Shown here piece after piece: positions 3,593-64,000 of a stretch of DNA of 64,000 nt. The translations under genes were made by a program, and so were the position numbers. Position 1 is the first letter of the stretch; every line of letters begins with the position of its first letter. A model generated the notes under the pieces. It ran no database searches, was not told the DNA's origin, and saw only the letters and a program-made list of their open reading frames with translations. The DNA is from Fibrobacter sp. Its GTDB lineage: Bacteria; Fibrobacterota; Fibrobacteria; Fibrobacterales; Fibrobacteraceae. The stretch lies in contig JAFVTX010000050.1 in NCBI GenBank assembly GCA_017503015.1, forward strand, positions 62,001 through 126,000, given 5' to 3'.

Positions 3593-3628
3593 CTTCGTCG
3601 AAAATGTAAAAAATTTAGCCCCCCACCC

Positions 3629-3658: not shown

Positions 3659-3670
3659 GCCTTACTTGAT

Positions 3671-3743
3671 GCCCCTATCGTCTAGTGGCCCAGGACTCGG
3701 GATTTTCATTCCCGCAACAGCGGTTCGAAACCGCTTGGGGGTA
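3671..3743 (+). tRNA. tRNA-Glu (anticodon TTC)
   Basis: Complete cloverleaf: acceptor GCCCCTA paired with TGGGGGT, D-arm GTCT...GGAC, anticodon stem CGGGA/TCCCG with loop TTTTCAT (TTC anticodon), T-arm AGCGG-TTCGAAA-CCGCT and discriminator A. CCA is not encoded. The first acceptor pair is a G-U wobble, as in the tRNA-Arg of this window. Confidence 0.95.
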
Positions 3744-3750
3744 TAAAAAA

Positions 3751-3778
3751 GATCAGCCGTTAGGTTGGTCTTTTTTTT
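3751..3778 (+). terminator. Rho-independent terminator after tRNA-Glu
   Basis: Hairpin GATCAGCC-GTTA-GGTTGGTC (8 bp including two G-U pairs) followed by eight T, 7 bases downstream of the tRNA. Confidence 0.85.
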
Positions 3779-3845
3779 ATACCTAGTGGGTTGGTTCCTT
3801 TTTTTGTTCAATGATGGTTTTGATAAAAATTCTATAATTCCCATC

Positions 3846-38456: not shown

Positions 38457-38585
38457 GAGTTAATAGTTATTAGTTACTAGTTACTAGAAACTACGTCTGT
38501 TTGTGAAAGCTTATTCATAAGTAAATAAAAAATCATCTGGGGTCCCTTGACTAATAACTTAGAACTAGTAACTAGTAACTTTTAG
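38457..38585. repeat. Inverted pair of 7-bp-period arrays between nuoN and nuoM
   Basis: Left: GAGTTAA, TAGTTAT, TAGTTAC twice, TAGAAAC, TACGTCT (38457-38498). Right: CTAATAA, CTTAGAA, CTAGTAA twice, CTTTTAG (38551-38585). The arms contain the same perfect 16-bp inverted repeat as the rmlB-rmlC gap (38472-38487 with 38565-38580). The nuoM stop codon is in the right arm. Confidence 0.85.
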
Positions 38586-40085: not shown

Positions 40086-42041
40086 CTACAGAGGTAGCCC
40101 TCCGATGAAGCGCCAGAGCAGAAGTCCGACGATAAGGGTTCCGAGGTAAAAGGGAAGGTAGCCCGCCTGGGCGGTGCGTACCAGGTCGCCCAGCTTGTGG
40201 GTGAACCAGACCGTAAAGGCGAGGATTCCTTCGATAATGTAGTCCTGGATAAAGCGGGCCGTGGCGGCCACACCTCCGAAAATGAACTGCCGCACCACGG
40301 CGTAGTAGATTTCGTCGAAGTAGAACTTGTGGTAGATGACCTTGTAAATGCGACTGCGGTTGGTATCGTCTAGCGCTTGGGCAATGTTGGATTTGGGCCG
40401 CCCGTAGAAGAACCAGGCGATGGCAAGGGCCACCACCGCAACGGCCACGGCTACCACGGGAATCCAGCTTGCGTGAGAAAGTTTTACCAAGGTGGGAACG
40501 TGAAGCTTGCCCACTACGAAGAATTTTTCGAAGATGCCCTTGCCCAAGAGACCGCTCAAGAGTGCCGGTACGGCAAGGACCACGATGGGAAGCGTCATGG
40601 CAAAGTCTTCGTGGACATGTCCCGCCTTGACGCCCTCGTGACGGGGCGCCCCGTGGAAGGCCAAGAAGAACAGCCTGAACATGTAGAAGGTGGTAAGCCC
40701 GCTGGTCAGGAGGGCTAGGCCGAACACCACGTAATGGTGACTCTGGAACGCCGCCAGAATGATTTCGTCCTTGGAGAAGAATCCGGAGAAGGGCGGAATG
40801 CCGGAAATGGCGAGAACGGAAATAAGGCAGCACCAGTAGGTCCAGGGCATTTTCTTGCGGAGGCCGCCCATGGCGTCCAAATCGTTGGTATGGACCTGAT
40901 GGATGAGAGAGCCCGCAATCAGGAACAGGCTGCACTTGAAGAAGGCGTGGGTAAAGATGTGGAAGGTGGAGGCTGTCCAGCCCGTTGCTACCACCACCTG
41001 GCCAATCTTGCAGACGCCCAGGGCAAACATCATGTAGCCCAGCTGCGAAAGAGTGGAGTAGGCTAGAATCCGCTTGATGTCTTTCTGGGTGCAGGCGATG
41101 ACCGCCGCAAAGACCATAGTGAAGGCTCCTACCACCATAATCAGCTTCAAGGTGTTGTCGCAGATGGCGAAGAAGGGGAAAAGCCTTGCCACCAGATAGA
41201 CACCCGCCACCACCATGGTGGCGCTGTGGATGATGGAACTGACCGGGGTCGGGCCTTCCATGGCGTTAGGCAACCAGATATGCATGGGGAACATGGCGGA
41301 TTTTCCCCAGCCGCCGGTGAAAATCATCACGGAGCCCAGCACCAGGGCCTCTGCCTTGGTAACGGTGCAAATCCCGAGATTGATGGTCTCGCCCTTGAAG
41401 GCGTGGAGGCTCAAGTCGTTCAGGGTAGAAAAGTCGAAGCTCCCTACCACGTAGCTTACCAGCACAATACCGAACAAGAAGAAACTGTCGGCAAAGCGGG
41501 TGAGGATAAAGGCCTGCTTGGAGGCGCTTACCGCCGAGGGCTTGTGGTACCAGAATCCGATGAGCAGGTAGCTGGACACGCCCACCAGTTCCCAGAAGAT
41601 GAACATCTGGAAAAGGTTGGTGGCGGCCACCAGGCCAAGCATGCTGAAGCTGAACAGGGAAAGCAGGCTGAAGAACCGCCCTGCGGAGGGATCTTCCCGC
41701 ATGTAGCCCACGCTGTAGATGTTCACCATGAAACTGATGAAGGTCACTACCACAAGCATCATCAGCGAAAGCGGGTCGATGAGCATGCCGATGGTGGCGG
41801 CGAGGTTTCCTGCAAAGGTGAGGAAGTCGTGCTGGAAAAGGACGGTCTTGTTCGGGGCAAAGTCCGAGGTGAAGTAATGCAGGGCCAAGGTGGCAGCACA
41901 CACGAAGGCAATGCCGTTACAGGCGATGGCGAGAGCCGCTGCCGCCTTGTGGCACTTGTTGCCCAGGAATAGTCCGTTCACCACGAAGGTGAGCAGGGGC
42001 AATGCCAGAATCAAATAACCGAGGGTCATATCGTTAATCAT
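40086..42041 (-). CDS. nuoL: Complex I subunit NuoL
   Basis: A 651-residue antiporter-like subunit with the long C-terminal lateral helix that spans the membrane arm. Motifs: IDPLSLMMLVVVTFISFMVNIYSVGYM, FWELVGVSSYLLIGFW, MFPMHIWLPNAMEGPTPVSSIIHSATMV, AYSTLSQLGYMMFALG, FFKCSLFLIAGSLIH and ISGIPPFSGFFSKDEI. The C-terminal helix region after residue 530 is complete. It overlaps nuoK by 8 bases. Confidence 0.97.
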   Translation of the reverse strand: MINDMTLGYLILALPLLTFVVNGLFLGNKCHKAAAALAIACNGIAFVCAATLALHYFTSDFAPNKTVLFQHDFLTFAGNLAATIGMLIDPLSLMMLVVVTFISFMVNIYSVGYMREDPSAGRFFSLLSLFSFSMLGLVAATNLFQMFIFWELVGVSSYLLIGFWYHKPSAVSASKQAFILTRFADSFFLFGIVLVSYVVGSFDFSTLNDLSLHAFKGETINLGICTVTKAEALVLGSVMIFTGGWGKSAMFPMHIWLPNAMEGPTPVSSIIHSATMVVAGVYLVARLFPFFAICDNTLKLIMVVGAFTMVFAAVIACTQKDIKRILAYSTLSQLGYMMFALGVCKIGQVVVATGWTASTFHIFTHAFFKCSLFLIAGSLIHQVHTNDLDAMGGLRKKMPWTYWCCLISVLAISGIPPFSGFFSKDEIILAAFQSHHYVVFGLALLTSGLTTFYMFRLFFLAFHGAPRHEGVKAGHVHEDFAMTLPIVVLAVPALLSGLLGKGIFEKFFVVGKLHVPTLVKLSHASWIPVVAVAVAVVALAIAWFFYGRPKSNIAQALDDTNRSRIYKVIYHKFYFDEIYYAVVRQFIFGGVAATARFIQDYIIEGILAFTVWFTHKLGDLVRTAQAGYLPFYLGTLIVGLLLWRFIGGLPL

Positions 42042-42339
42042 GCAAGTCCCTCAACTGGTCGGCGTCAAGGCTGTGGTGCCTGCGGTACATGGTGACGATA
42101 ATGGCAAGGGCGATTGCCATTTCGCAAGCGGTAACGGCGATGACGAAAATACTGAACAGGGCGCCCGCGGTAGAGTCCTGGGCGGTAAAGTAGGCAAAAG
42201 AGATAAAGTTGATGTTGGCGGCGTTCAGCATGAGCTCGATGGAAATGAGCATGCCGATTAGGTGGCGGCGACGCATCAGGCCCCAAACGCCAATGCCAAA
42301 GAGCAAGAAGGCGAGAATTAGGCAATTCATCAGGTTCAT
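42034..42339 (-). CDS. nuoK: Complex I subunit NuoK
   Basis: A 101-residue three-helix membrane subunit. GVWGLMRRRHLIGMLISIELMLNAANINF carries the conserved membrane glutamate (in IELML), and the third helix has AVTACEMAIALAIIV with the second glutamate. Both are thought to take part in proton transfer. Overlaps nuoJ by 4 bases (ATGA). Confidence 0.95.
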   Translation of the reverse strand: MNLMNCLILAFLLFGIGVWGLMRRRHLIGMLISIELMLNAANINFISFAYFTAQDSTAGALFSIFVIAVTACEMAIALAIIVTMYRRHHSLDADQLRDLHD

Positions 42340-42929
42340 TGCTTCACCTCCTTTTCCTTTTCCACCTCGTCCTTTGTCTTGCGGGCGATGGTGATGGCGC
42401 AGATAAGGGTCATCAGGAGCAAGACACTAACCACCTCGAAGGGGATGATAAAGCTATCCTGGGTGTAACCCAGAAGGCGCATGGCGAAATTCTGCAGGCT
42501 GGAATAGTCCGGAGCCGAAGCCACCGCACCGCTGGAAAGTTCCGGCATGGGCAGCAGGCACTTGACCATCACGAACACGAAGGCGATGGACAGGGCGAAG
42601 GCGGCAAAGACTCTCGGAATCTTGGTGGCAAAGGCGTCTTCGCCCAGGTGGCTGGTAAGCAAGATGGTAAACACCACGAAAATCACCACGCCGCCGATAT
42701 AGACCATCACCTGGGCGAGAGCGATAAATTCCGCATGCAACAGCAGGTAGAGGATGGCGGTAGTCACGAAGGAGAAAATCAGGAACACGGCGCTCTGCAA
42801 GATGTTCTTGACCGCAACGGTAAAGACCGCCGTCACGAGCATGACGATGGCCACGGCGTAAAAGGCGATGTCCATTCCCCCGTGGGGGAACGACAGCGCT
42901 AGTTCTGGAAGTTGAAGGCCTGGAAACAT
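42336..42929 (-). CDS. nuoJ: Complex I subunit NuoJ
   Basis: A 197-residue membrane subunit with five helices; FYAVAIVMLVTAVFTVAVKNILQSAVFLI and EFIALAQVMVYIGGVVIFVVF (with the pi-bulge helix of the family) are diagnostic. The C-terminus ends in a charged KTKDEVEKEKEVKQ tail. It starts one base into the nuoI stop. Confidence 0.93.
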   Translation of the reverse strand: MFPGLQLPELALSFPHGGMDIAFYAVAIVMLVTAVFTVAVKNILQSAVFLIFSFVTTAILYLLLHAEFIALAQVMVYIGGVVIFVVFTILLTSHLGEDAFATKIPRVFAAFALSIAFVFVMVKCLLPMPELSSGAVASAPDYSSLQNFAMRLLGYTQDSFIIPFEVVSVLLLMTLICAITIARKTKDEVEKEKEVKQ

Positions 42930-43402
42930 TATCCCTGTCCCTCCTTCTTGTTGAGAATCATTTCAAGGGTATTGGGGTCGGTAGTGGCCACCTCGAAATC
43001 CTGGTTCATGCGGATAGCCCCGAAGGGGCAGGCCTCTACGCAGAGCCCGCACTGGGTGCAGCTGGCAAAGTGATACACGTAACGGCCCAGCACCTTTTTA
43101 CCGGCGATGTTCTTGGTGGAAAGTACGTTGATGCTCCCGTTGGGGCAGGCGCGCTCGCACATGCCGCAAGAGGTGCAGTGGTTGTTGCCGTCGGCGTCTT
43201 CGATCATTTCCAGACGGCCGCGGTAGCGGGGGTGCATCTTGAGGGTTTTCCGGTTTTCGGGATACTGCTCGGTAACGATGCGTCTTGGGTCTATAAAATA
43301 CTTGAAGGTCACGGACAGCCCGCACAACAGGCTCCAGGGGCCCGTGATGCAGCGCTTCAGGTAACGCTTGATATACGGAATGAATGAACTACTCTCTTGC
43401 AT
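42929..43402 (-). CDS. nuoI: Complex I subunit NuoI (two 4Fe-4S clusters)
   Basis: A 157-residue ferredoxin-like subunit of the connecting arm. Cysteines 76, 79, 82 and 86 (CTSCGMCERACP) and 115, 118, 121 and 125 (CTQCGLCVEACP) bind the N6a and N6b clusters. In a complex without NuoEFG, NuoI and NuoBC are where an outside donor such as reduced ferredoxin could hand over electrons; that is inference from relatives of this type. Confidence 0.96.
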   Translation of the reverse strand: MQESSSFIPYIKRYLKRCITGPWSLLCGLSVTFKYFIDPRRIVTEQYPENRKTLKMHPRYRGRLEMIEDADGNNHCTSCGMCERACPNGSINVLSTKNIAGKKVLGRYVYHFASCTQCGLCVEACPFGAIRMNQDFEVATTDPNTLEMILNKKEGQG

Positions 43403-43411
43403 AAAACAATC

Positions 43412-44533
43412 CTAACCACTAATCGCTATCCACGCCGCCCCTGCCGTGAGCAGCACCAGGTTCACCGGCAACAGGAACTTCCATTCGAAATCCATGAGCT
43501 GGTCCACGCGGGGGCGCACAAAAGTCCAGCGTACCATCATGTAGCACCAGATCATGAAGAACACCTTCCCGAAGAACCACACCAGGCCAGGCACCATGTT
43601 CAGCACGTTATCTACGGGGGCAAAGCCGATGCAGGGTGCATGGAAGCCGCCCAAGAAACAGGTGGTGGCCAGAGCCGAGTTGGTGACCAGGGCGATGTAT
43701 TCGGCTAGGTAGAACATGGCAAAGGGTGTGCCGTTGTATTCCGTGTGGTAGCCGCCGGTGAGTTCCTGCTCCGCTTCGGCGATATCGAAGGGGGCGCGGT
43801 TCATTTCGGCGGTGCTGGAAATGAAGAACAGAATGAAGGCGATAAAGCCCAGTACGGGAATCTTGAAAATCCACCAGTCAAAAACCGTTCCCTGCTGGCT
43901 CATGGTAATGTCCATCAGGTTGGTAGATCCGGAAATCATCACCACGAACAGAAGGATCATGGCAAAGGAGATTTCGTAACTGATAATCTGGGCGCCGCTA
44001 CGCAAGGCTCCAAGCAGGGAGTACTTGTTGTTGCTGCTCCAGCCGCCAAGCAAAATGCCCAGCACGCCGAAACCGTTCACCGCGATAATCAGGGGAATGC
44101 CCATGGAAACGTCGGCCACCACTAGGTCCTTGCTGAAGGGAATCAGGGCGCAGACCATGAAGGGGGCAATCAGCACGATCATGGGTGCCGTGTAGAACAT
44201 CAGCTTGTCTGCACCACTGGGGGCATAGACTTCCTTGAAGAGCATCTTGAGCACGTCGGCGATGGTCTGCATAGTGCCGTGCCAGCCCAGGCGCATAGGG
44301 CCAAGACGGCACTGCACGTGGGCGCAGACCTTGCGTTCCATGTAGATGAGAATAGGGGCAGAACCGATGTTCACGGCGCAGACCGCGATGATGCAGATGA
44401 CGGCGTTAATCAAGAAGGCGACGACGCTGTCCAAAGTCTCGGACTGGAAGGCTACAGGCAGGTAGGCAGTCACCTGGGGAACCAGGTTCCTTACAAAATC
44501 GCCGATAGGATTGGTAACGGAAGGGACAAACAT
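43412..44533 (-). CDS. nuoH: Complex I subunit NuoH
   Basis: A 373-residue membrane subunit that closes the quinone chamber. Motifs: IYMERKVCAHVQCRLGPMRLG (first loop), QTIADVLKMLFKEVYAPSGADK, and the glutamate-rich loop TAEMNRAPFDIAEAEQELTGGYHTEY. Eight membrane helices. Only 3 bases separate it from nuoD, exactly where E. coli has nuoE, F and G. Confidence 0.96.
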   Translation of the reverse strand: MFVPSVTNPIGDFVRNLVPQVTAYLPVAFQSETLDSVVAFLINAVICIIAVCAVNIGSAPILIYMERKVCAHVQCRLGPMRLGWHGTMQTIADVLKMLFKEVYAPSGADKLMFYTAPMIVLIAPFMVCALIPFSKDLVVADVSMGIPLIIAVNGFGVLGILLGGWSSNNKYSLLGALRSGAQIISYEISFAMILLFVVMISGSTNLMDITMSQQGTVFDWWIFKIPVLGFIAFILFFISSTAEMNRAPFDIAEAEQELTGGYHTEYNGTPFAMFYLAEYIALVTNSALATTCFLGGFHAPCIGFAPVDNVLNMVPGLVWFFGKVFFMIWCYMMVRWTFVRPRVDQLMDFEWKFLLPVNLVLLTAGAAWIAISG

Positions 44534-44536
44534 AAA

Positions 44537-45676
44537 CTACCTGTCAATTTCGGGAATCACGGGGTCCAAGGTGGCTAGGATGGTCACCAGGTCCGAAATC
44601 TTGTGGCCCTGGACCATCTTGTTGAGGGCCGCGATGTGGGGGAAACTTGGACCGCGTGTGTGTATGCGGTAGGGCTTCTCGCCGGTAGTGGCGGCTACTA
44701 CGTAGGTGGCGTAGAGCCCCTTGGCGGTCTCGATTTCGCTGTAGTAGCGGCCCACCGGCAAACGCACCGGCTTTTCTTTGGAGCGCCAAGGCCCTTCGGT
44801 GGGGAACCGATCAATGCACTGCCGGAGGATTTTCATGGACTCGTGGATTTCGGCGATACGCACCGTGTAACGGTCGTAGCAGTCCCCGTTGTGGGTCACG
44901 GGAACTTCGAAATCGAAGGAGTCGTAGATGCTGTAGGGGTTCGCCCGGCGCACGTCAAAGTTCACGCCGCTGGCCCTGAGCACGGGACCGGAGCATCCGT
45001 AGGCGATGGCGTCTTCCTTGGAGAGGATGCCTATACCCTTGCTGCGTTCCAGAACAATGATGTTCTTGGAAAGGAACCGCTCGTAATCCTTCATGGTGTC
45101 ATCCATGTGGTCGAGGAAAGCCTTGACCCGCGGGATAAACGTGTCGGGCACGTCGTAACGACTTCCACCCGGCCTGAAGAAGTTGGTGGTGAGTCTGGAG
45201 CCCGTCACCTCTTCCAAGATGTCGTGGATCATCTCGCGTTCCTTGAAACCGTACAGCAGGCAGGTCTGTCCGCCCAGGTCGCCGCCAAAGCAGGCGAAGA
45301 ACACCAGGTGGCTCGCAATACGGCCCAGTTCCTGCAGCATCACGCGGATATATTCCGCCTTCTCGGGAACGCCGATGTTCATGCCTTTCTCGAGGGCGAT
45401 GACCACACCCAGGTTGTTCTGGATGGCGGTAAGGTAGTCCTGACGGTCGGAAAGGGCGATGTACTGCAGGTAACTCATGGATTCGGCCTGCTTTTCCATA
45501 CCGCGATGGATATAGCCGAAATGGGGCACCAGCTCTACGATGGTCTCGCCGTCCATGCGGAGGGCGAGGCGCAGGGCCCCGTGGGTACTGGGGTGCTGGG
45601 GACCCATGTTGATGAAAAATTCTTCGGTGTTGGTTTCACGCTGAATGCGGAATCCCGGAGGAAGCATTCCTGTCAT
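44537..45676 (-). CDS. nuoD: Complex I subunit NuoD (49-kDa type)
   Basis: A 379-residue hydrogenase-related subunit that lines the quinone site. It shows FFINMGPQHPSTHGALRL with the quinone-site His, VPHFGYIHRGMEKQ, GCSGPVLRASG and SFPHIAALNKMVQGHKISDLVTILATLDPVIPEIDR at the end. Not fused to NuoC, unlike E. coli; NuoC is instead fused to NuoB. Overlaps nuoBC by 4 bases. Confidence 0.96.
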   Translation of the reverse strand: MTGMLPPGFRIQRETNTEEFFINMGPQHPSTHGALRLALRMDGETIVELVPHFGYIHRGMEKQAESMSYLQYIALSDRQDYLTAIQNNLGVVIALEKGMNIGVPEKAEYIRVMLQELGRIASHLVFFACFGGDLGGQTCLLYGFKEREMIHDILEEVTGSRLTTNFFRPGGSRYDVPDTFIPRVKAFLDHMDDTMKDYERFLSKNIIVLERSKGIGILSKEDAIAYGCSGPVLRASGVNFDVRRANPYSIYDSFDFEVPVTHNGDCYDRYTVRIAEIHESMKILRQCIDRFPTEGPWRSKEKPVRLPVGRYYSEIETAKGLYATYVVAATTGEKPYRIHTRGPSFPHIAALNKMVQGHKISDLVTILATLDPVIPEIDR

Positions 45677-46932
45677 ACGGGCCTCCTGATCATTTCCGGG
45701 TGGGTAAAGTCCTTGCGCAGGGGGTAGCCTACGAAGTCGTCGTCCAAGAAGATTCGGCGCTGGTCGGGGTGGCCCACGAAGTCGATGCCGAACATGTCGT
45801 AAACTTCACGTTCCTTGAATTCCGCCGCCGGATACAGGTGGCTGATGCTGGGGGCGTGGGCAAGGAGCGCCGTGGCCCGCTGCTCTTCGGGAATGGAAAA
45901 GTCCTTTTTCAGTTGCAGGCAGAGGAACAGCTTGTGTCCGTGTTCCATGCTGCGGAACTGGGACACTACGTCAAAATGGTCGTCGTAGTCGATACCTACG
46001 ATGTCGATGAGGTAGTCCATCTTGAGGCTGGCCTCATCCTTGATGAATTCCACCATGGGCAGGTAGTCTTCGGGGGTGACCATCACTTCTAGCGGTCGGT
46101 CCGCCGGCATGGCGGCCACCACGTCTTCCACAGGGTCTTCGCTGTGGGTATGCACCGTTACCGCCGGGAATTTTTCCTTCAGCTTTGCGTAGATGTCGGA
46201 CTGGGTAAGCCCCATGCGCTTGAAGGGGACCCGCTCCACTTCGGGAAAGTCCTCTTTCTTGATGCGGATGGGCTTGAAACTGGACTTGTAGTCGGGATTT
46301 TCTTCCTTGAACTTGGCCCTGGCTTCTGCCATCTCCTCGTCTTTCATCTCTTCCAGGGCGGCCCAGGTCTTGGCGGCTTCGCGGTAGCGGTCCATGGTGG
46401 ACACGTCTTTGGGGGAACCCTCGTGCCAGGGGTTACGGCAGGTCTCCTTCAGGATTTTTTCACGAAGGGTCAAAAGCCCGTGGAAAAGGGCCTCGGGCCT
46501 GGGTGGGCATCCGGGGACGAACACGTCTACGGGAATCAGGTTCTGGGCGCCACGGACTACGGAGTAGTTGTCGTAGATGAAGGGCCCGCCGCTGATGGTG
46601 CAGGCGCCCATGGCGATGGCGTACTTGGGGCCAGGAATCTGCTCCCACAGCATCTGGATGGCAGGCGCCATGCGGCGGGTGATGGTTCCCGCCAAAATAA
46701 ACAGGTCCGCCTGTCTTGGAGAGCTGCGGAACACTTCACTTCCAAAGCGGGCGATGTCGTAGCGGGCCATGGAACTGCTCATCATCTCGATGGCGCAGCA
46801 GCTGGTGCCGTAGGTCAAGGGCCAAATGGAATTTGCACGGGCCCAGTTCACCACGTAGTCGATGGCGTTTACCACGTACTTACCGCCCGGAATAGGGTCC
46901 AGGATTTTTGGAGCGTAATTAATTATTCCCAT
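45673..46932 (-). CDS. Fused complex I subunits NuoB-NuoC
   Basis: A 419-residue single reading frame. Residues 1-165 are NuoB, with all four ligands of cluster N2: Cys45-Cys46 (GTSCCAIEMM), Cys111 (GACTISGG) and Cys142 (VPGCPPRPEAL). Residues 165-235 are a charged linker (EEMKDEEMAEARAKFKEE). Residues 236-419 are NuoC, with YLIDIVGIDY, FKEREVYDMFGI and the closing GYPLRKDF. No frameshift or stop divides them, so the fusion looks genuine. NuoB and NuoC touch each other in the assembled connecting arm, so fusion is structurally reasonable. Overlaps nuoA by 10 bases. Confidence 0.95.
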   Translation of the reverse strand: MGIINYAPKILDPIPGGKYVVNAIDYVVNWARANSIWPLTYGTSCCAIEMMSSSMARYDIARFGSEVFRSSPRQADLFILAGTITRRMAPAIQMLWEQIPGPKYAIAMGACTISGGPFIYDNYSVVRGAQNLIPVDVFVPGCPPRPEALFHGLLTLREKILKETCRNPWHEGSPKDVSTMDRYREAAKTWAALEEMKDEEMAEARAKFKEENPDYKSSFKPIRIKKEDFPEVERVPFKRMGLTQSDIYAKLKEKFPAVTVHTHSEDPVEDVVAAMPADRPLEVMVTPEDYLPMVEFIKDEASLKMDYLIDIVGIDYDDHFDVVSQFRSMEHGHKLFLCLQLKKDFSIPEEQRATALLAHAPSISHLYPAAEFKEREVYDMFGIDFVGHPDQRRIFLDDDFVGYPLRKDFTHPEMIRRPV

Positions 46933-47303
46933 TTCAGGATTCCTTTTTTCCAGGCGTAGGCGAGGCCGGAAACGAGAATGGCCATAAATATCACAAGGTC
47001 AATGATAACGACCGCAGGGGCGAGGGGCGTGTTCCCGGCCATGATTTCCTTGAAGTTCATGAGCACGGGATACAGGAACAAAGCTTCGATGTCGAATACC
47101 AGGAACAAGAGTGCGAACAGGTAGTAACCCACCTTGAACTGGATGCGGGCGTTTCCGATGGTCTGCATGCCGCATTCGTAGGGGGCCATCTTGTTCTTGG
47201 TGTTCTTGGTACGGTAGCCCAGCAGAAGCCCGGTGACGGTAGCCGCCGCCGCGATGAAGGCACCCAAGAAGAGGAAAAATGATAATATGATGTATTCGGA
47301 CAT
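46923..47303 (-). CDS. nuoA: Complex I subunit NuoA
   Basis: A 126-residue three-helix membrane subunit: LLGYRTKNTKNKMAPYECGMQ (the loop with the conserved Cys near the quinone site), ARIQFKVGYYLFALLFLVFDIEALFLYPV, then the third helix. First gene of the nuo operon. The 49 bases before its start are a 7-bp repeat array, so the promoter is probably further upstream, near 47360-47420; no SD is visible. Confidence 0.95.
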   Translation of the reverse strand: MSEYIILSFFLFLGAFIAAAATVTGLLLGYRTKNTKNKMAPYECGMQTIGNARIQFKVGYYLFALLFLVFDIEALFLYPVLMNFKEIMAGNTPLAPAVVIIDLVIFMAILVSGLAYAWKKGILKWE

Positions 47304-54005: not shown

Positions 54006-55790
54006 TCAGCTGTCTGTTTCCTGACTACCTTCGATAATCCACTTACACAGTTCCAAGATTCCCTCGTAGTCAGGCAGGCTTTTGATGAAGTCTGGCGATT
54101 TGCTCCGTTCCACAAATCCGTTCCAGGCGCCTTCGTTTTTTGCCTTGATTCCCAGGTGCTCTTCGATAGCGCCGTGGGTCCACACCCAGATTCCCTGGCT
54201 CCGGAGTTTAGCGTGAATACTCTTGATGGGCCGCTCCGCCTCGGGCATGGACGCCATCATGGAATAGGCCATAGAAGCACTGATGTTGCTGTGCTTACTC
54301 ACGGGGAGGCCGTTGTTCAGGCGCAGGTGATGGTGGAACGCCAGTTCCCTAAACAGGTTCCTGCAGAACTTCACGTCAGGGTCGTTGGCTTCCAAGAATC
54401 CGTCCCGGGTAGCTGTGGTAAAGGCATAGTCCAAATCCACAATAGCCCGTACCGGCATGTCCATGGCGTTCAGCACCTGCATACTCTTGCGGGTGTTGCT
54501 CACGCCTCCCTGACGCACAAGGGCGCACTTGATAAGGGCAAAGGATTTCCCGGTAATGCGCTCAAACAGAGCCGGTAGAACCCGCCATTCTGTCTTGCCT
54601 TCGGTCAGCAACACATAGTCCGCAAACAAAAGTTCGTTACTGTTGCTCAAGCTGAACAGCATCTGCAGTTGGCTAGGAGCATCTTGCACCACCTGATGCA
54701 CCGCATCTTCGATTCGCTTGCGCATGAAGGTGCCCCGTTCCTTGTTCTTGCGGATCAGGAGGGAAGTGCTCACGTCTTCGCTGGTCACCATCTGAGCGCT
54801 GTGGGTGGCGAACACGATCTGGTAACCTTCGTTGGAGAGATTTTTCAGGGCCACACGCACCAGTTCTACCGCCTGGGGATGCAGGAACAGTTCCGGAGAA
54901 TCTATCAGGAGCATTGTCCGGCTCAGGTAGTGGTTGTTGTGGTGCTTCTTGATTTCGGAAAGGTAACGGACCAGGGCCATCTGGATGGCACGTTGGCTTC
55001 CAGCTCCCATGCGGTTGATGTCTCGTTCAAATCCGTCATCCTCGTCGATGACCTTCAGGCTTGCCGTTTTCAAGAAGGTCTCCAGTGTGGGAATGGGAAT
55101 ATCCAGTTCCACTCGCACGCTGGGGAATAGCGGCTGCAATTTCTCGTTGACTTCCCGGTCGAAGGACTTGATTTCTGCGGCCTGGTTTTCGCCACCTGGT
55201 GAAAGCAGGTCGTTGAACTTTCCCAAAATGTCGTTAAACTCACCACCAAAACGCCGTTCCAGGGGCTTAAAAATTTCATGAAGCAGTTTGGTAAAGGCCT
55301 TGTTTCCTTCAAAATCCCAGATGGCGATAGGTTCCGGGAACATGCGCTTAAAGGCGTGCTTGAAATCGTCACCCACCCGCATCCAGCCCTTGCGGCTTCC
55401 GTTCTGTCGTTGCGGGGGTACCAACGCCCACAGTTCAACATTCTCCGGAGGTATTCCCGGTACCCGCTGAATTTTTTTCACCCGCAAACTTTCGCCGTTC
55501 AGGAACGGCACAATCTCTTTAGCCTTCTCTTCCCCCAGACGGCTCAATACTGTTTCCGAGATGCCCTGAAAAAGACCTTCCACCTCCACCGGTTCGTTAC
55601 TGTCGTCAAAATAAGAGACATCTAGCGAAAAGGGGGATAGCAACCACCGGATTCCCATAAGGATATTGGTCTTACCGGCATTGTTGTAGCCTATCAGGGC
55701 GGTCATGTTGTTCAGGGGAAACGTCTGCCTGTGGATAGACCGCAGGTTGCAAATCGTAATCTCAGATAATCTTAACGGCTGGGGCTGCAT
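54006..55790 (-). CDS. OLD-family ATP-dependent nuclease (AAA ATPase + TOPRIM)
   Basis: A 594-residue OLD (overcoming lysogenization defect) family protein. N-terminal ABC-type ATPase with Walker A GYNNAGKTNI (34-43) and the LLIDSPELFLHPQ Walker B segment; His of the H-loop in FATHSAQMV. The C-terminal TOPRIM has LLTEGKTEWRVLPAL (catalytic Glu) and the metal pair in VDLDYAF. Walker B has Ser where the family usually has the second acidic residue (IEEPE/IDEPE). No UvrD-like GajB partner is adjacent, so it is not a Gabija pair; a class 1 OLD acting alone in phage defence or DNA repair is likely. The ATG at 55790 is preferred because TATATT ends 6 bases upstream; ATG 55805 and TTG 55817 are alternatives. 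Confidence 0.88.
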   Translation of the reverse strand: MQPQPLRLSEITICNLRSIHRQTFPLNNMTALIGYNNAGKTNILMGIRWLLSPFSLDVSYFDDSNEPVEVEGLFQGISETVLSRLGEEKAKEIVPFLNGESLRVKKIQRVPGIPPENVELWALVPPQRQNGSRKGWMRVGDDFKHAFKRMFPEPIAIWDFEGNKAFTKLLHEIFKPLERRFGGEFNDILGKFNDLLSPGGENQAAEIKSFDREVNEKLQPLFPSVRVELDIPIPTLETFLKTASLKVIDEDDGFERDINRMGAGSQRAIQMALVRYLSEIKKHHNNHYLSRTMLLIDSPELFLHPQAVELVRVALKNLSNEGYQIVFATHSAQMVTSEDVSTSLLIRKNKERGTFMRKRIEDAVHQVVQDAPSQLQMLFSLSNSNELLFADYVLLTEGKTEWRVLPALFERITGKSFALIKCALVRQGGVSNTRKSMQVLNAMDMPVRAIVDLDYAFTTATRDGFLEANDPDVKFCRNLFRELAFHHHLRLNNGLPVSKHSNISASMAYSMMASMPEAERPIKSIHAKLRSQGIWVWTHGAIEEHLGIKAKNEGAWNGFVERSKSPDFIKSLPDYEGILELCKWIIEGSQETDS

Positions 55791-55836
55791 ATCCTGAATA
55801 TACATTATTAGGGGCAAAAAATTCTACATTCTAGAT

Positions 55837-56434: not shown

Positions 56435-56935
56435 TCAGCGGGCATCCGGGTCTACCCAATAGCGCAAACGGCCCGTAATGTGCAAATTGGGCAAGGTGTC
56501 GATACATTTTCCGGAGCGGCAGTCCGGGGTGTACAGGTCCAGGGTGGCGGTCCAGGTGGAGTCGTCCTTCTGGTCGAACCGCACAATGCTGCTATCGCCT
56601 AGGATGGGCGCCTGGGTCAGGGAGCCGTAGTTGAACCAGGAGTACTGCTGCACCACCGGGTTGTCGCCCAAAACGGGCCCGTTCACCATAATGGAAAATT
56701 GGTCTCCCCGTTTACTCTCTTTGGCCCTGGTCTTCACGAGAAAATACCTGTGGCTGTTCTTGATAAAGGGCACTTCCACGTCGGATTCCGCCAGTTCGAT
56801 GGTCCGTTCGTCTTCGTCGTTGATCCTGTACTTCAGGTAGCCGCCGCCATCCACCTCCCAGCCTTCGTTAATATCACCGCAGGCCATCAACAGAACGGCG
56901 GCGGCAAGGCAGGTTTTCAGGCGGAAAGGAATCAT
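56435..56935 (-). CDS. Small lipoprotein of unknown function
   Basis: A 166-residue exported lipoprotein: signal peptide with lipobox LLMACG (Cys19). The mature part is acidic and beta-rich (EGWEVDGGGYLKYRINDEDERTIEL; YLVKTR-like strands; a W-rich middle QQYSWFNYG) with a Cys pair in TPDCRSGKCID. I do not recognise a family; its size and layout recall gliding-type GldH lipoproteins of the Bacteroidota, but the similarity is weak. It is divergent from the phosphopantetheinyl transferase gene, 30 bases apart. Confidence 0.65.
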   Translation of the reverse strand: MIPFRLKTCLAAAVLLMACGDINEGWEVDGGGYLKYRINDEDERTIELAESDVEVPFIKNSHRYFLVKTRAKESKRGDQFSIMVNGPVLGDNPVVQQYSWFNYGSLTQAPILGDSSIVRFDQKDDSTWTATLDLYTPDCRSGKCIDTLPNLHITGRLRYWVDPDAR

Positions 56936-56965: not shown

Positions 56966-57529
56966 ATGGAAGGCGACTGGCAAACAGTTTCAACGCTGAA
57001 CGGTACGGTTTATCTGGCGGTTGTCCCGAAGGCCAATCACAGGGAGCATATTTTCAAAAAGCTTTCCCAGGCCCTCGGCCGTACCATTACCGCCCAGGAC
57101 CTAAAAACCAGGCCCGGTTCCACGCGACCCGAATTTCCGGAACTTTCCGTCGATGCCAACTGGACTCACTCCAAGGACGTCTGCGTGCTGGCCTATTCCA
57201 GGGAATGCCGCGTCGGCATAGACCTGGAATTTCATTCCAGGAACCGGCTCAAACTTGCGGACCGTTTCTATTCCGACGAAGAAGTTAAGAGAATCCACCA
57301 AATTGAACAGACCGAAGGCGAAAGTGCCGCCATCAGGCTCTTTTACGCCCTCTGGTGTCGCAAAGAAGCTTTTTTCAAGTGCCAAGGCGGGGACTTTTTC
57401 GAAGGAACACTACGCAGGTCCCTTCTCGAAACCCGCATAGAAAACGTCCAATTGACGGACTTGGATCCGGCACCCCTCGGCATCCAGGGAGAATGCTCCC
57501 TGTGCCTTGCCACCATGCCTTTGGGTTAG
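56966..57529 (+). CDS. 4'-Phosphopantetheinyl transferase (Sfp/AcpT-like)
   Basis: A 187-residue enzyme that moves phosphopantetheine from CoA to a carrier protein Ser. Metal and catalytic residues fit the superfamily: Asp86 and Glu88 in VGIDLEFHSRN, then W130-x2-K133-E134-x3-K138 in LWCRKEAFFKCQGG. The length is between AcpS and full Sfp types, closer to a reduced Sfp-like enzyme. Its target carrier protein is not obvious; no ACP or NRPS gene is nearby. It ends in a 4-base convergent overlap with the next gene. Confidence 0.85.
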   Translation: MEGDWQTVSTLNGTVYLAVVPKANHREHIFKKLSQALGRTITAQDLKTRPGSTRPEFPELSVDANWTHSKDVCVLAYSRECRVGIDLEFHSRNRLKLADRFYSDEEVKRIHQIEQTEGESAAIRLFYALWCRKEAFFKCQGGDFFEGTLRRSLLETRIENVQLTDLDPAPLGIQGECSLCLATMPLG

Positions 57530-57963
57530 TTCTTCACTTCGCCGTCAGGAGCTTTCCCATTCCCGTGGGGCACTTCCAGGGCGTACAAGGGCAGGGCCAC
57601 GTATTCTTCGTCGTCGATAATCAGGCGAATCATGTACTTGTCGGGCCGCTCTATCTTCAGGCGCTGCATGTTCAGAATCAAGTTCATGGCAGCCGTGTCA
57701 AATCCCTTCGCCACAGGCTCAAAAGAAACGTTGGATTCCATGCCGGGAACAATGGGGTGTCCACACACGTCCTCGATAGAAAGCACCAGCTTGTGCACTC
57801 CGGCCTCGGCCCGCTGGTAACGGATACGGAAGGCCGCCGCACACTGGGGAATCACCAGCGGGAACTGTGAAAAGATTCTGTCAAAAGAACCGAGAATGTT
57901 CAAGCGGCCGCCGGCCCCGTTGGCCGTCGCCGCGTCGCAAATAGAAGCAATTTCAACAATCAT
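57526..57963 (-). CDS. Conserved cytoplasmic protein of unknown function, DUF6941-like
   Basis: A 145-residue soluble protein starting MIVEIASICDAATANGAGGRL, then NILGSFDRIFSQFPLVIPQCAAAFRIRYQ and a closing IRLIIDDEEYVALPLYALEVP. The layout resembles a small family (DUF6941) of unknown role; I am not certain. No signal peptide. It lies one base downstream of the 1772-residue lipoprotein gene, so it is probably translated from the same mRNA, and its 3' end overlaps the convergent PPTase gene by 4 bases. Confidence 0.6.
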   Translation of the reverse strand: MIVEIASICDAATANGAGGRLNILGSFDRIFSQFPLVIPQCAAAFRIRYQRAEAGVHKLVLSIEDVCGHPIVPGMESNVSFEPVAKGFDTAAMNLILNMQRLKIERPDKYMIRLIIDDEEYVALPLYALEVPHGNGKAPDGEVKN

Positions 57964-57964
57964 A

Positions 57965-60900
57965 TTAAGGTTTGGTGTTGAAGGTCCAACTTTCAGAAAT
58001 ATTTTTCATGAATATGGGTCCGTTGTTTTGGCTTGCCGCTCCGGAACTTGTCCAGGAAATCATAGAAATATATACCATGCCATTTGTAGAAACTGCTATC
58101 TCCGGAGCAAATCCATAAAGATTGTACCCATGGCTAGCATAGAACGGACCCTTGAAATACGGGAGCTGGTTTTCGCCATAAGGATTCCAACGAATGCCAT
58201 CGTAGAAATAAGCGTGACAATGAGAGAATCCTCGACCGTTATCATCGATAATTGCATAAACCTTGCCGTTAAAGGAGGTTACCCTGATATTTGTTGGTAA
58301 CATACCCTCTTGAAGGTTTGTGCCATTATCTAACGACAAGCCCGAAAGGCTGACCGGTCCTTTCTTAACATAGGGCCCAGCCTTACCAACCACAGAAGAT
58401 CGATTGATATACCCAAGATACACCGTATTCCCGTTGGATGCAAGACTGATACTCCCCATTTCCTTGGATATTAGCGAAGGAGCAATCTTTTCGGAATACG
58501 AAGTATTATATATGGCATAATATGAATTGTACAAATAGGTGTTGTCCGTGAAGGTTATCAAGAATACTTTCGTGCTGGTAAACACTCCATTCACATCCCT
58601 TGCCGTGAGAGTGTTCGAAATGGATTTCTCCGTCCATTTTGATCCCGTCCAATAGCTGAAATAGGGATGATTTTCCTTAGCGTAGGTCACTACCGGATTA
58701 TTATTGTCGGTGTTATAGGTCAAATTCAGCGAAGTTGCACCGCTAATAGGCTGGCCTACTGCCGTCCAAGCCGAATTAACCGAAGCGGTCTTGTAAACAT
58801 AAAGTTTATTTGCCGTCGTAAGTATGGCCAAGAATACCGCAGAATTACTCTGATCGTTAATACTGGTCATTCGCATAGCCACTACAGAATCTTCAAGGGA
58901 GATGTTCGAAATGTTTGCCCAGCTTTGTCCGTTATAGTATTTTGTTACAATTGTATTTCCTGGGATTGCATAGGCAACAACTAAATTTGTACCGAAGGTG
59001 GTTATCGCAGGCGGTGTACGCACGGTAGATTTTTGCAAAACTGTATCACTTGCCGCGGCAAGATTTTTCCAAGCGCGTTGCACATACACCGTACGGCAGA
59101 ACATTTCAGCCTGGTGGCGGTTCATAAACGTCACATCAGGATTTGCAGAAGAACTATCCCTAAAGTCTAGGCACACACTTATGGTACCTTCGGAAGTGGG
59201 ACGTCTAAAGGCATCATTGAACTGAGCGATGTTCGTATCCAAAGAACCGTCGGCTTTGCCCTTGTAGAAAGTACTACCCACATTACTAAACCGCCAATAG
59301 TATTCCCTTAGATTGTCGTTTCCAAGCGTCCCTTTTACCGATTGGGCTCCACTCCACTCCGGAGAATAGTAATAGAGCGCTTCACCACTTTGCGCTTCGT
59401 CACCGCTCCAGGGATAAATTGTATCCACGGCCGTGATTTTTCCAATTGGGAGATTTGCAGATGTTAACACGTTCACATAAGTCGTGTCGCGGAACACGGC
59501 TTTGGTACTGCTTTCTTGGGCGGATACGACACAATATAGGTTCACGCCCAAATTGCTCATACTCTCTCTATACGAATAGAATCTACCCGTATACTTCAGA
59601 TGCACATCATCTTCCAACGATTGTTTTGTACTTGCATTGAAGCATTGCCAACTGTACCAATCGATTCCTTGCCATACACTATTGGTATCTGCATCCAATA
59701 GAATCACGTCTCCCTTTGCAACATACTTTACAGAGACATCCACAGAAATTGTCGGTATCTCCGTAGAATAAATTATTTTCATGGTTGACGTAGCAACATT
59801 CCCATCATCGTCAGTTGCTCGTGCCACACAAGAGAAGTTCGCCGTAGCAGTAGGTGCTGTCCACGTCGTATCAAAGGTAGAAACCGTTTTCCAATTACTG
59901 TTAATCGCCGCAGCATCACGACCGCAACTCCATTCCCGTTTTGCAATAAACCCTTTCTTGTCTTGGGCTGTGGCATTGAGAACTATTGCATAACCCTCTC
60001 GAACAATAGCCGAATCACGGGCGACTTTCACTGTAGGCGGATCCAATTCCACTACAAAGCGAGTGGTATCCTTTGCCGTAAGGTCGTCGTCGTCCTTCAC
60101 CTGCACAATGCAGAGGTAGAGGCTATACGGTTCCGATGGCATTATCGCTTGGTACGTTGCCTTGCCTGAAGTCAATTTGCTTAAGATGTTATTGTCACTA
60201 CCGGGTCCACAGCCCCACTCATAAGAAACAATCCGTCCTGGTAAAGTCGCTTCCGAAGAATCCTTAGCATTAGCATAGAGGCTGACCGTATCCTTAATAG
60301 AAACATTAAAGGATTCGTTCACGGTAACCGTAGGCGGTGCGCGGAAAACCTTATAAACGACAGTATCCAACGAATAGAGCAAAGGTTCCTCGGCGTCGGC
60401 GGCACGCATAACGCAATAGTAGTTTCCTGCCGTTTCTGGCATGGAAATTACCGGTGTCAGCGTATTGCCGCGACCTTGCCACAAGCTAACCCAGCTAGCC
60501 GGCTTTAAGTTATTCAAGTTGCGATCGCAAGCCAAATCCACATCTATGGGGCCGCCTAACGTATTTCCCGTAGTATACTTTACTTGTTCCTGGTCTTTAA
60601 TAGTGACATTCTTACTGTGAATATTCAAGCGAATTGTCGGAATGTCCTTGATGACGTTGAAAGTCATGGCAACGGAATCCTTCTGATTATCGTCATCAAC
60701 TGCAAAGACGTAGCACTTGTAATTTGCGGCTTCACTATTCGGCAATTGAATCTCCATGGAGTCCGTAACTGGATTTTCTAGCTTCGTAACAGCAAAGGCT
60801 GTGTAGGCACCCGTACCACAACGGTAGCCCACTTCCTTGACTCTTCCATACTTGTCCTTAGCCGTGTACTCGAACTTGTGCTTGGAATTCACCTTCTTGT

Positions 60901-63283
60901 CGATAGTTTCCTCGTTATCGTCCACAGTAATGGTCGGAGGATCCTTGATAACATTGACCTGCAAGGTGTCCGTAGCCGTCTTACCTTGGTTATTGGTTGC
61001 AACGACAACAATCCTTTTCGTTCCGGAGCTTGTCCAAGACTTCTGGGGATTCTGGGTGTTTTTAGGGAAACAGTTGTCAGTCTTATTACTACCGTCAAAG
61101 CACGTCCAGTCTAGCGATGTAATTGCACCACTTCCGTCATTAGGAATCACTTCTGTCACCAAGAAGATTTCGTCATTCAGGGAAATAGTCGTATCATAGA
61201 CCGGAGACGTAATGGTCACCATAGGCCCGTCACTATAGAATCCGAATCGCACCGTATTCGAAACAGCTCCGTTATCAGCCACAGCATGCATCGTATATCG
61301 AACGTTGGGGACAACATTTGCAGGGACATTTTCCTTCTTCAATTTAATCGTTGCAGTCCCGTTAGAAACATCGGTCTGACGGGGATTGTCTCCAGGAATA
61401 TTTGAAATCCAGGTCACCACAGAAACAGGAGGCTTGGCATCTACGTCAACCGCCACTTTAAAGGTTAATTCATCTGAGTTGCCAGCCATAGCAGAACTAG
61501 CGTTATTTACAGTAAGAGTCATATTTGTAGCAGAAACCACAAAGGTAAACGTCGTATCGCTGCGGTAACCAGCACTGTCTGTCGCCGCAAGTTTGAAGGT
61601 GTATGTACCGTCCGATAAGCCGACAAAATCTACGCTCCACGCATGGCTGGTCAAGTTAGAAAAGTGGCATGGGCTATCCTTCACCCCGCACGTATCCTTA
61701 CCAAGCACAGCCACCGCTGTCTTCACCTGGGAGCCATAGTCACTGAATCTTCCGGACGCGACGAAGGCTCGGACAGCAATTGTATCTTCAATGCCCTTGA
61801 CATTGTAGATGCGTGGTGGTGCAGGGTCTTTGAGCAAAATAAGAGGCAGCTCTTTCTCGTCACCTGCATTGATGTTTGGAGTCCTGGTGGTAACCTTTAC
61901 AAAGCCCCGGCCAGTTTCATCGGAGGCGGTCAGTTTGAACGTTCCGGCAGGCAGGTCAGACACCCTGAATTCTCCCTTGGCGTTGGTGCTAGCGGTATAA
62001 ATGTTACTAGTGTCGGCTGAATTGACCAAGGTTATCTTGATTCCAGAGTGGACGGACAGACCCTCGAACTTGGCGGTTCCTATAAAGTCACAAGTAGACT
62101 TGCTTGGACCCAGGTAAAAATAACGCGGTCGCTTACCCTTGCTGGTCTTGATTTTTTCGGCAACCACGGTGTCGTAGCCATCGGTCACCCACACGTCCCA
62201 AGAGAAATATCTGCCCGTAAAGCCCAATTTTTTCAGTTCATTCTCTCCGTTTTCGATAACGGCAAAACTTGTGGAAGTACTGTTCTTTAGCACCAAGTCG
62301 TAAACATTAGACAAGTTCAGATCGCTTTCCTGGTCGTCCGGTGTGGGAGCCACACGAACGTAATACCTCAATTGCTCTTCGTTATCCCTGTCGTGGCCCT
62401 CATAGAACAACCGGAAGGCTTCCACCGTATCACTTATCCTCTGTTGGTCGTCTGGGCCCAAGATTTTGATAGTAGGCAATTGGTTGAAATGTAAGAAAGC
62501 ACTGTCCTTCGTGGTGTTCTTGTCGTCGTCAGTGACAATAATGTAAATCTTCTGATTTCCAAGGCTGTCCGTAAGGGTTGAATCGTAGGGAATCGTAATT
62601 ATCAGGCTATCCGAGGTTTCACTCTTGGTATACTTCCAATCCTTCGCCTCGCGTTTACCCGCCGCATCCAAATCAACCTTGAAAGAGGTTATCGTACCAA
62701 ATGAATCTAGCGCAAGTATGGGGAACGTAACAGGACTCTTGGCCCTGGTCCAAAGAGTATCCTTAGGAACACCTAAATAAGGCGGCGTGTTGATGACTCT
62801 GATAAACTGGTCTTTGCCAGCAGTATCCGTCGCGCTATTTCCGTCAACCGCAACAAACAGGGGCGAATAAACCCCCTCCTTCATATAGACCCAAGACTGG
62901 GGGGTGGCGTTGTGCCCCGTAACCAGGGCCTTTTTCATCTGGTCCTTCCCCTTGCCGGTGGTGTCCTTTACAAGGCTGTCCAAAATCCACTGATACAGAT
63001 ATATCTTGTCGGAATTGTAACGCAAGAACCCCATCATATGAATGGTATCGCCTATGGTGACCGTAACAGTATCATTTACGATGACAGAATCAGGGTTAGG
63101 CAGGTTGATAATGGAGTCAGCAAAAGCATCAGGATTTTCAAAGGGCGTCTTATAGATAAACACTACGGAATGGTTATTCCGCAAATTCACATTTTCCTTG
63201 ATGGATGACTCTCTGGAACAATTCACCAGAGCCATCGTACACAAGATCAACCCAAACAATAAAAACAAAGTTTTTAACCGCAT
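57965..63283 (-). CDS. Very large multidomain surface lipoprotein (Ig/PKD-like repeats)
   Basis: A 1772-residue exported lipoprotein (lipobox ending at Cys22, ALVNC). Roughly: 60-390, divergent PKD-like strands (DTIHMMGFLRYNSDKIYLYQW; IIVTDDDKNT); 398-470, a carboxypeptidase-regulatory-like domain (IGTAKFEGLSVHSGIKITLV); 500-620, another beta domain; about 640-1290, six repeats of 93-107 residues each with one Cys pair (such as WxCF...C, RCGT...YKCYVFAVDDD, EWGCGPG...YLCIVQVKDDDD, EWSCGRD...FSCVARATDDDG); 1424-1772, a region with short W/Y repeats that may be a beta-propeller. DD(D) ends to the repeats suggest calcium binding. SD GAGGA precedes the start. A surface or adhesion role is likely; nothing identifies the ligand. 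Confidence 0.75.
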   Translation of the reverse strand: MRLKTLFLLFGLILCTMALVNCSRESSIKENVNLRNNHSVVFIYKTPFENPDAFADSIINLPNPDSVIVNDTVTVTIGDTIHMMGFLRYNSDKIYLYQWILDSLVKDTTGKGKDQMKKALVTGHNATPQSWVYMKEGVYSPLFVAVDGNSATDTAGKDQFIRVINTPPYLGVPKDTLWTRAKSPVTFPILALDSFGTITSFKVDLDAAGKREAKDWKYTKSETSDSLIITIPYDSTLTDSLGNQKIYIIVTDDDKNTTKDSAFLHFNQLPTIKILGPDDQQRISDTVEAFRLFYEGHDRDNEEQLRYYVRVAPTPDDQESDLNLSNVYDLVLKNSTSTSFAVIENGENELKKLGFTGRYFSWDVWVTDGYDTVVAEKIKTSKGKRPRYFYLGPSKSTCDFIGTAKFEGLSVHSGIKITLVNSADTSNIYTASTNAKGEFRVSDLPAGTFKLTASDETGRGFVKVTTRTPNINAGDEKELPLILLKDPAPPRIYNVKGIEDTIAVRAFVASGRFSDYGSQVKTAVAVLGKDTCGVKDSPCHFSNLTSHAWSVDFVGLSDGTYTFKLAATDSAGYRSDTTFTFVVSATNMTLTVNNASSAMAGNSDELTFKVAVDVDAKPPVSVVTWISNIPGDNPRQTDVSNGTATIKLKKENVPANVVPNVRYTMHAVADNGAVSNTVRFGFYSDGPMVTITSPVYDTTISLNDEIFLVTEVIPNDGSGAITSLDWTCFDGSNKTDNCFPKNTQNPQKSWTSSGTKRIVVVATNNQGKTATDTLQVNVIKDPPTITVDDNEETIDKKVNSKHKFEYTAKDKYGRVKEVGYRCGTGAYTAFAVTKLENPVTDSMEIQLPNSEAANYKCYVFAVDDDNQKDSVAMTFNVIKDIPTIRLNIHSKNVTIKDQEQVKYTTGNTLGGPIDVDLACDRNLNNLKPASWVSLWQGRGNTLTPVISMPETAGNYYCVMRAADAEEPLLYSLDTVVYKVFRAPPTVTVNESFNVSIKDTVSLYANAKDSSEATLPGRIVSYEWGCGPGSDNNILSKLTSGKATYQAIMPSEPYSLYLCIVQVKDDDDLTAKDTTRFVVELDPPTVKVARDSAIVREGYAIVLNATAQDKKGFIAKREWSCGRDAAAINSNWKTVSTFDTTWTAPTATANFSCVARATDDDGNVATSTMKIIYSTEIPTISVDVSVKYVAKGDVILLDADTNSVWQGIDWYSWQCFNASTKQSLEDDVHLKYTGRFYSYRESMSNLGVNLYCVVSAQESSTKAVFRDTTYVNVLTSANLPIGKITAVDTIYPWSGDEAQSGEALYYYSPEWSGAQSVKGTLGNDNLREYYWRFSNVGSTFYKGKADGSLDTNIAQFNDAFRRPTSEGTISVCLDFRDSSSANPDVTFMNRHQAEMFCRTVYVQRAWKNLAAASDTVLQKSTVRTPPAITTFGTNLVVAYAIPGNTIVTKYYNGQSWANISNISLEDSVVAMRMTSINDQSNSAVFLAILTTANKLYVYKTASVNSAWTAVGQPISGATSLNLTYNTDNNNPVVTYAKENHPYFSYWTGSKWTEKSISNTLTARDVNGVFTSTKVFLITFTDNTYLYNSYYAIYNTSYSEKIAPSLISKEMGSISLASNGNTVYLGYINRSSVVGKAGPYVKKGPVSLSGLSLDNGTNLQEGMLPTNIRVTSFNGKVYAIIDDNGRGFSHCHAYFYDGIRWNPYGENQLPYFKGPFYASHGYNLYGFAPEIAVSTNGMVYISMISWTSSGAASQNNGPIFMKNISESWTFNTKP

Positions 63284-63377
63284 TATTCAATCCTCTATAA
63301 TACGCTCTTCACGATATAAATTTATCTTTTTTTACGAAAAAGGGGTAATGGCGCCCTACGGATTTTTGGGAGTTTTT

Positions 63378-64000
63378 ATGGAAAATATTCCTCTTTGGTA
63401 CGGTTTGTTTCTTTTTTTCGCCTTGGGAGCTTGCGTAGGCAGTTTTTACAACGTGATTGTATACCGGATGCCCCGCGGGATATCGCTAATAAACCCGCCG
63501 TCCCATTGTCCTCTGTGCAAGAAAAGGATTCCCATCTACTACAACATGCCCATCGTGGGCTGGCTTTGGCTTCGGGGCAAAAGTGCCTGTTGTAAGCAAC
63601 CCATCAGCGTAATTTATCCTATCGGAGAATCTCTGTGTGGGCTTCTTGGCGCATTGGCTTTGTTTGCTGCCAATTGGAATGTGGGATGGACTGCGCCTGT
63701 TGCCAACTGGATTGACGCCCTAGCCATGTTTTGGCTGCTTTTGGGTATGTATCCTGTGTGCGCCATCGATATTCAGTACAAACTAATTCCCGATTCAATT
63801 TCGGTAGGGGGTATCGTGGTGGGCTTAGCCCTTTCTATGTTCCCTGGCGGAATTACTCCTTTTGAGAGCCTGCTAGGGGCAGTCGGTGCAGGAGGAGGCC
63901 TTTGGCTTTTGGGATTTGTAGCTTCAAAAATTTTGAAAAAAGACGCCATGGGCTTTGGCGATGTCAAACTGTTGGCGGGTTACGGAGCGCTGATGGGGCT
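63378..64000 (+). CDS. pilD: Prepilin peptidase PilD (A24), N-terminal part
   Basis: The first 207 codons of a membrane aspartic protease that cleaves and methylates type IV prepilins; the gene continues past the window end. N-terminal methyltransferase-linked domain: ACVGSFYNVIVYRMPRG and HCPLCKKRIPIYYNMPIVGWL. The protease Asp pair is visible in CAIDIQYKLIPD and MGFGDVKLLAG. The usual second zinc-site C-x2-C reads SACCKQPIS here. It fits with pilT and pilC near 6.5-8.8 kb. SD GGGAG, start ATG 63378. Confidence 0.93.
   Translation, partial: MENIPLWYGLFLFFALGACVGSFYNVIVYRMPRGISLINPPSHCPLCKKRIPIYYNMPIVGWLWLRGKSACCKQPISVIYPIGESLCGLLGALALFAANWNVGWTAPVANWIDALAMFWLLLGMYPVCAIDIQYKLIPDSISVGGIVVGLALSMFPGGITPFESLLGAVGAGGGLWLLGFVASKILKKDAMGFGDVKLLAGYGALMG

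Follow-up and report, generated by a model that had tools for sequence, protein, structure and literature searches.

A hypervariable lipoprotein of Fibrobacter read as a surface recognition rod with a conserved base and a recombining stalk and tip

Our analysis of a 64,000-nucleotide stretch of Fibrobacter DNA (the window) centers on a 1772-residue lipoprotein encoded on the reverse strand at 57965..63283, with orthologues in Fibrobacteraceae genomes. The reading that we favor, with moderate confidence, is an outer-membrane, surface-exposed recognition rod with a conserved base and a recombining stalk and tip. A conserved base, a Cys-stapled stalk, and a variable tip at a fixed locus suggest the pattern of a surface protein pressed to vary. 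According to our working model, about twelve Ig/PKD-type domains would form a rod that projects from the outer membrane, held there by its lipid anchor; the Cys pairs, one in each of six PKD domains, would stiffen it, and the propeller at its tip would bind something, perhaps a glycan. New stalk and tip alleles would arrive from other Fibrobacter cells by homologous recombination within the conserved flanks and base, with phage, predators, or changing ligands possibly favoring them. The neighboring DUF6941 protein would be translated after the rod and work independently.

Domain architecture of the lipoprotein

The 1772-residue lipoprotein frame reported in a sequence-only reading of this DNA is real, with a signal peptide and lipobox at residues 1–22 (63218..63283, reverse strand) and Cys22 followed by Ser. 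The lipobox Cys is kept in 31/31 orthologues and, in a second set, in 49/49 of the sequences reaching that position, and Ser occupies position +2 in all rod orthologues; under the E. coli sorting rule, Ser at this position is no block to outer-membrane sorting. From the N-terminus, the lipid anchor is followed by three PKD-like domains, a carboxypeptidase-like domain, two Ig-like domains, six Cys-paired PKD domains, a linking domain X, and the propeller, all borders being approximate. The base (residues 22–487, 61823..63220, reverse strand) comprises the three PKD-like domains (residues ~60–392), of which N1 scores against R4 and N2 against R2 of the Cys-paired repeats, and a carboxypeptidase-regulatory-like domain (residues 393–487). 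The latter is matched by Pfam CarboxypepD_reg at 413–478 with an E-value of 7e-7, slightly below the Pfam cut-off, and the base also matches SpaA at 24.4 bits against a cut-off of 23.1. This domain had been said to flank the Cys-paired repeats; it is present, but two Ig-like domains intervene (residues 488–686, 61226..61822, reverse strand). This pair is highly variable and weakly matched by Big_13 and Y_Y_Y in Pfam; Big_13 is matched there in 8/17 orthologues, and identity drops at this point. Searches of the whole rod protein against PDB chain sequences gave chance-level matches only, NCBIfam and PHROGs searches returned nothing usable, and promoter and terminator scans stayed at chance level. 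DNA repeats within the gene are short.

Six Cys-paired PKD domains, R1–R6, span residues 687–1277 (59453..61225, reverse strand). The earlier description of six Cys-paired repeats of about 93–107 residues, all with a DDD/DDE-type end, holds for the repeats themselves, which are 94–102 residues long with two Cys apiece (728/738, 822/857, 919/957, 1025/1058, 1120/1152, and 1214/1251), but the DDD motif, with which PKD domains commonly end, occurs in R2, R4, and R5 and not in the others. Scores of repeat against repeat exceed those of shuffled controls, up to z 9.8, with several pairs well beyond the shuffles. Pfam assigns the repeats to the K319L-like PKD family (PF22352; 40.1 bits against a curated cut-off of 27), which is matched in 16/17 orthologues at E-values up to 0.001. 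The stalk domains resemble K319L-like PKD proteins in exceeding the family cut-off; what sets the rod apart is that each repeat regularly carries a Cys pair and that the alleles recombine.

The sequence-only reading had named orthologues lacking the Cys pairs as evidence that would count against it; the five pairs from 822/857 to 1214/1251 are kept in 50/50 sequences, and in the first repeat Cys728 is found in 50/50 and Cys738 in 44/50. This positional retention over 50 sequences is not chance. Domain X (residues 1278–1402, 59078..59452, reverse strand) holds a further pair, Cys1371/1396, of which both members are present in 24/50 sequences and both absent in 26/50, the pattern expected of a disulfide. 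The modelled R5 and R6 place their Cys on apparent strands C (as W.C) and F, with strand letters read from order; the canonical Ig disulfide joins strands B and F. Oxidation of the Cys to disulfides in the rod is likely. It is not certain, since the host genome encodes a DsbA-like CPYC lipoprotein (G000:C65, locus L166, 1213–1992) while no DsbB or VKOR match was found in it. The host being an anaerobe, the route by which such a DsbA-like protein would be reoxidized is puzzling.

What lies at the tip of the rod? Residues 1076–1772 were modelled from 40 sequences with a mean pLDDT of 88.6, and the last ~365 residues, containing ~27 strands, form a propeller (residues 1403–1772, 57968..59077, reverse strand, supported by the model, the fold search, and allele comparisons). 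The possible C-terminal beta-propeller of the sequence-only reading is therefore supported, and a high-confidence prediction assigns its fold to the seven-bladed type. The best structural matches were Photorhabdus PLL-type lectins and BP39L; VIA-align gave Z scores of 26–28 to PLL4, PLL, PHL, and BP39L over ~300 residues, with an rmsd near 3 Å. YncE ties with these PLL-type lectins, sialidase-type and WD40 propellers follow closely, and the top match in a plain Foldseek search is the LGI1 propeller, so the fold match is not specific; likewise, the propeller fold alone is no proof of binding, because the scores of YncE and WD40 propellers are nearly equal to those of the lectins. The likeness to PLL-type lectins lies in the fold of the tip; the two differ in sequence (8–13% identity, no profile match) and in context, the lectins being soluble, whereas the rod propeller is a domain ending a rod. 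A propeller profile search of PDB sequences recovered no PLL lectin at E-values up to 1, and a Pfam search with the propeller found no lectin family at E-values up to 0.1. In PLL-type lectins, Trp residues line the sugar sites between blades; three tryptophans (Trp1455, Trp1550, and Trp1699) are kept among propeller sequences. Perhaps the propeller binds sugar, a possibility that we take as a lead only.

Mosaic alleles and probable exposure at the cell surface

Comparison of the window with locus L083 (UBA4223) delimits a block at 58183..61813 (reverse strand, borders approximate) of 56–72% identity between flanks mostly at 92–99%. Across pilD and the initial 1.4 kb, identity is mostly 96–99%, with one bin at 84%; in bins along the gene it is mostly 96–100% up to nucleotide 1440, falls to 56–72% over ~3.6 kb, and is back at 92–98% in DUF6941 and beyond. 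By domain, the two proteins hardly differ in the base (residues 22–487), on which purifying selection is strong, with a dN/dS of 0.02–0.06 over residues 22–392. Beyond it dN/dS is mostly saturated, so that the variable block allows no positive-selection reading. The same profile emerges across five relatives, in which most of the stalk and tip has a median nucleotide identity of 62–65% against flank medians of 91–96%, and hardly any flank bin is at 75% or less. Two other stretches of the genome, of 12 kb and 20 kb, are mostly 85–97% identical where they match, some short segments being lower.

The segments that differ change from pair to pair. L081 and L083 share 92–100% identity in 300-nucleotide bins only at nucleotides 2400–4200, with 72–89% on either side within the gene; L111 and L122 differ most in R1–R2; and between L088 and L113 the propeller holds most of the differences. 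Between the near-complete assemblies G003 and G067, identity is 96% in DUF6941, 78–97% in most domains, and 51% in the propeller body. The propeller body is the rod's most variable part, with few positions fixed, and clustering of 49 sequences at 60% amino-acid identity yielded 24 propeller-body types against 6 base types. Locus L076 has the window allele (core median 99.5%) next to a pilD that is mostly at ~82%, a combination pointing to allele transfer, and in a PHI-type compatibility test 0/500 permutations fell at or below the observed value for both sets tried. By these comparisons, stalk and propeller segments have been exchanged repeatedly between strains, while the base is conserved. 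In nearly all genomes of the family the propeller profile has a single match, and outside the family it has weak partial matches only; one match per genome implies no obvious silent cassettes and, given that no within-genome cassette reservoir was seen, exchange between strains is probably the source of new alleles. In several relatives the flank holding pilD (63284–64000) is, at 73–88% identity, less conserved than the opposite one, as though exchanges had carried it along.

Could the variation be neutral drift, under loose constraint, in a scaffold or spacer that faces the periplasm from the outer membrane? We regard this as unlikely, even though outer-membrane lipoproteins, including ones of this sort, can face inward and the divergence of the propeller body would fit such drift. 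It leaves unexplained the sharp borders, the blocks of 98–100% identity between otherwise diverged alleles, and the sharing of the window allele by L076, and it sits badly with purifying selection on the base. Moreover, an Ig/PKD-type domain is roughly 4 nm long, and twelve or more of them, if extended, would exceed a normal periplasm. We therefore infer that the rod lies at the cell surface, an assignment for which mosaic hypervariability is stronger support than the arguments of the sequence-only reading. The adhesin or surface rod proposed there survives, with good support, as a long rod bearing Cys pairs, a lipid anchor, and a binding-type tip, but its link to a pilus system does not. A counterpoint to the surface rod is that a whole clade lives without the protein and that many of the sequences are MAGs.

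Distribution of the rod and its neighboring genes

Rod orthologues were found in 62 genomes of the genus and in 13 genomes from five further genera of the family; the rod is restricted to Fibrobacteraceae. Among cultured strains, Fibrobacter intestinalis ATCC 43854 has it, at locus L123. Nine rod-less genomes examined retain pilD and DUF6941. They form one clade within the genus with a support of 1.0 in a tree built from pilD and DUF6941 only, in which some same-genus tips were mislabelled "outgenus", and given this monophyly a single loss is the simplest account. In L157 (G130) and L159 (G118), which represent two genera, a gene of 369–444 codons precedes the rod gene, and an HrpA-like helicase follows the latter in G130; the rod of both loci matches the profile without residues ~1160–1258, and one PKD domain may be missing. 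We found no paper on the Fibrobacter rod protein.

Fibrobacter degrades cellulose by contact (PMC6851124), and a large lipoprotein ending in a lectin-like fold might be an adhesion factor of its cellulolytic apparatus. That role seems doubtful to us for the rod: an entire Fibrobacter clade does without it, no carbohydrate-binding module family was matched, no type IX C-terminal sorting domain was detected (Por_Secre_tail, E-values up to 1), and hypervariability is unexpected in a protein that binds an invariant crystal.

The 145-residue frame that the sequence-only reading placed one base after the rod stop was confirmed at 57526..57963 (reverse strand). It encodes a DUF6941 protein (PF22091; 99.4 bits against a curated cut-off of 27, E-value 2e-28), predicted to be a beta-sandwich (pLDDT 74), in which no signal peptide was seen. 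Its fold search returned common beta-sandwich matches only, with the Wzt carbohydrate-binding domain at Z 9.9 and many others tied; no match was found among PDB chain sequences, it was not found among viral contigs, and no paper mentioning DUF6941 was found. In most orthologues the rod stop and the DUF6941 start overlap as TAATG, and in genera g1, g17 (G076), g19, and g41 the two genes are adjacent, with a divergent pilD next to the rod. The latter gene, a prepilin peptidase (PF06750, PF01478) at 63378..63998 on the forward strand, runs off the window.

Such an arrangement could suggest that the rod and DUF6941 are obligate partners in an attachment system linked to type IV pili, and the sequence-only reading had described the small protein as a co-translated partner. 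We consider a system of this kind improbable. Whether the neighbor is kept with the rod, a check named in that reading, gave a divided answer, as the two are adjacent in the four genera above but unlinked in g21 and g22. DUF6941 occurs in 98/121 genomes of the phylum, other families included, and hardly varies while the rod does; its sequence also shows no signal peptide. Because the rod-less Fibrobacter clade keeps it and two genera have it unlinked, DUF6941 is not an obligate partner of the rod and is independent. Of the pilus genes invoked earlier, pilD does lie next door, but no other was found adjoining the rod, and the proposed link depends on this divergently oriented gene for a general prepilin peptidase. 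Still less probable is that the mosaic is an artefact of chimeric MAG assembly: many loci do come from metagenome bins, but alleles and blocks recur in independent studies (the window with UBA4375; L081 with L083), near-complete assemblies of few contigs, G003, G005, G010, G030, and G067 among them, show mosaics too, and the flanks are contiguous with the gene.

Several other features of the region deserve mention. A 4'-phosphopantetheinyl transferase gene (56981–57529, forward strand), also seen in L063, L065, and L162, lies between DUF6941 and a small lipoprotein gene; like the rod, it is missing from the locus in the rod-less clade. The small lipoprotein (56435–56935, reverse strand; C..IN.GW...GGGY.KY.IN) has no Pfam match and is kept at the locus in several genera, most rod-less genomes included. 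An OLD-like AAA ATPase with a TOPRIM domain is encoded at 54006–55817 (reverse strand), and its upstream half is at 77–81% identity in L079, L081, and L116 and at 83–99% in most other relatives, a possible recombined segment. Farther away lies an NADH:quinone oxidoreductase operon (38565–47303, reverse strand), in which the frame at 45673–46932 joins 20 kDa and 30 kDa subunit domains. A ~90-base stretch at ~18430–18535 matches many places in every relative and might be an RNA element or a repeat scattered through the genome; no tRNA was found there by ARAGORN.

Relation to known systems and significance

Archaeal surface-layer proteins combine beta-propeller and PKD domains on the cell surface, and the rod may resemble them in this combination. 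The closest known kind is VARTIG, the hypervariable Ig-domain protein of Thermococcales (PMC8416519). Like VARTIG, the rod is a large, probably extracellular protein of Ig type in which the distal part recombines at the locus, between species in the case of VARTIG, while the proximal part is conserved. Unlike the rod, which is usually present in one copy per genome, VARTIG has a gene set that changes, and additional small genes there carry spare C-terminal domains; no spare-domain genes of this type were found in the family, where the propeller profile matches once per genome. The rod differs further in its propeller tip, its lipid anchor, and its bacterial hosts. A looser parallel exists in Borrelia, in which surface lipoprotein loci that interact with the host are reported to be diversified by recombination and selection (PMC11389397). 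Those loci likewise vary through recombination, but the proteins are unrelated to the rod and the partner is an animal host.

With the rod, the group of hypervariable Ig-type surface proteins gains a bacterial example. Fibrobacter is a key fiber degrader in herbivore guts, and, to our knowledge, little has been established about what its strains recognize or what attacks them. As a phage receptor, a ligand-specific adhesin, or a predator-escape protein, the rod is a candidate that can be tested directly, and the swapping of stalk and tip alleles at one conserved locus provides a marker for strain typing. More tentatively, we speculate that the rod could be a dedicated Fibrobacteraceae recognition system with interchangeable tips and stalks, in which the allele would set the phage, predator, neighbor, or glycan that a cell meets. 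If the rod is indeed such a recognition module, its alleles would act like the strain-defining surface structures found elsewhere.
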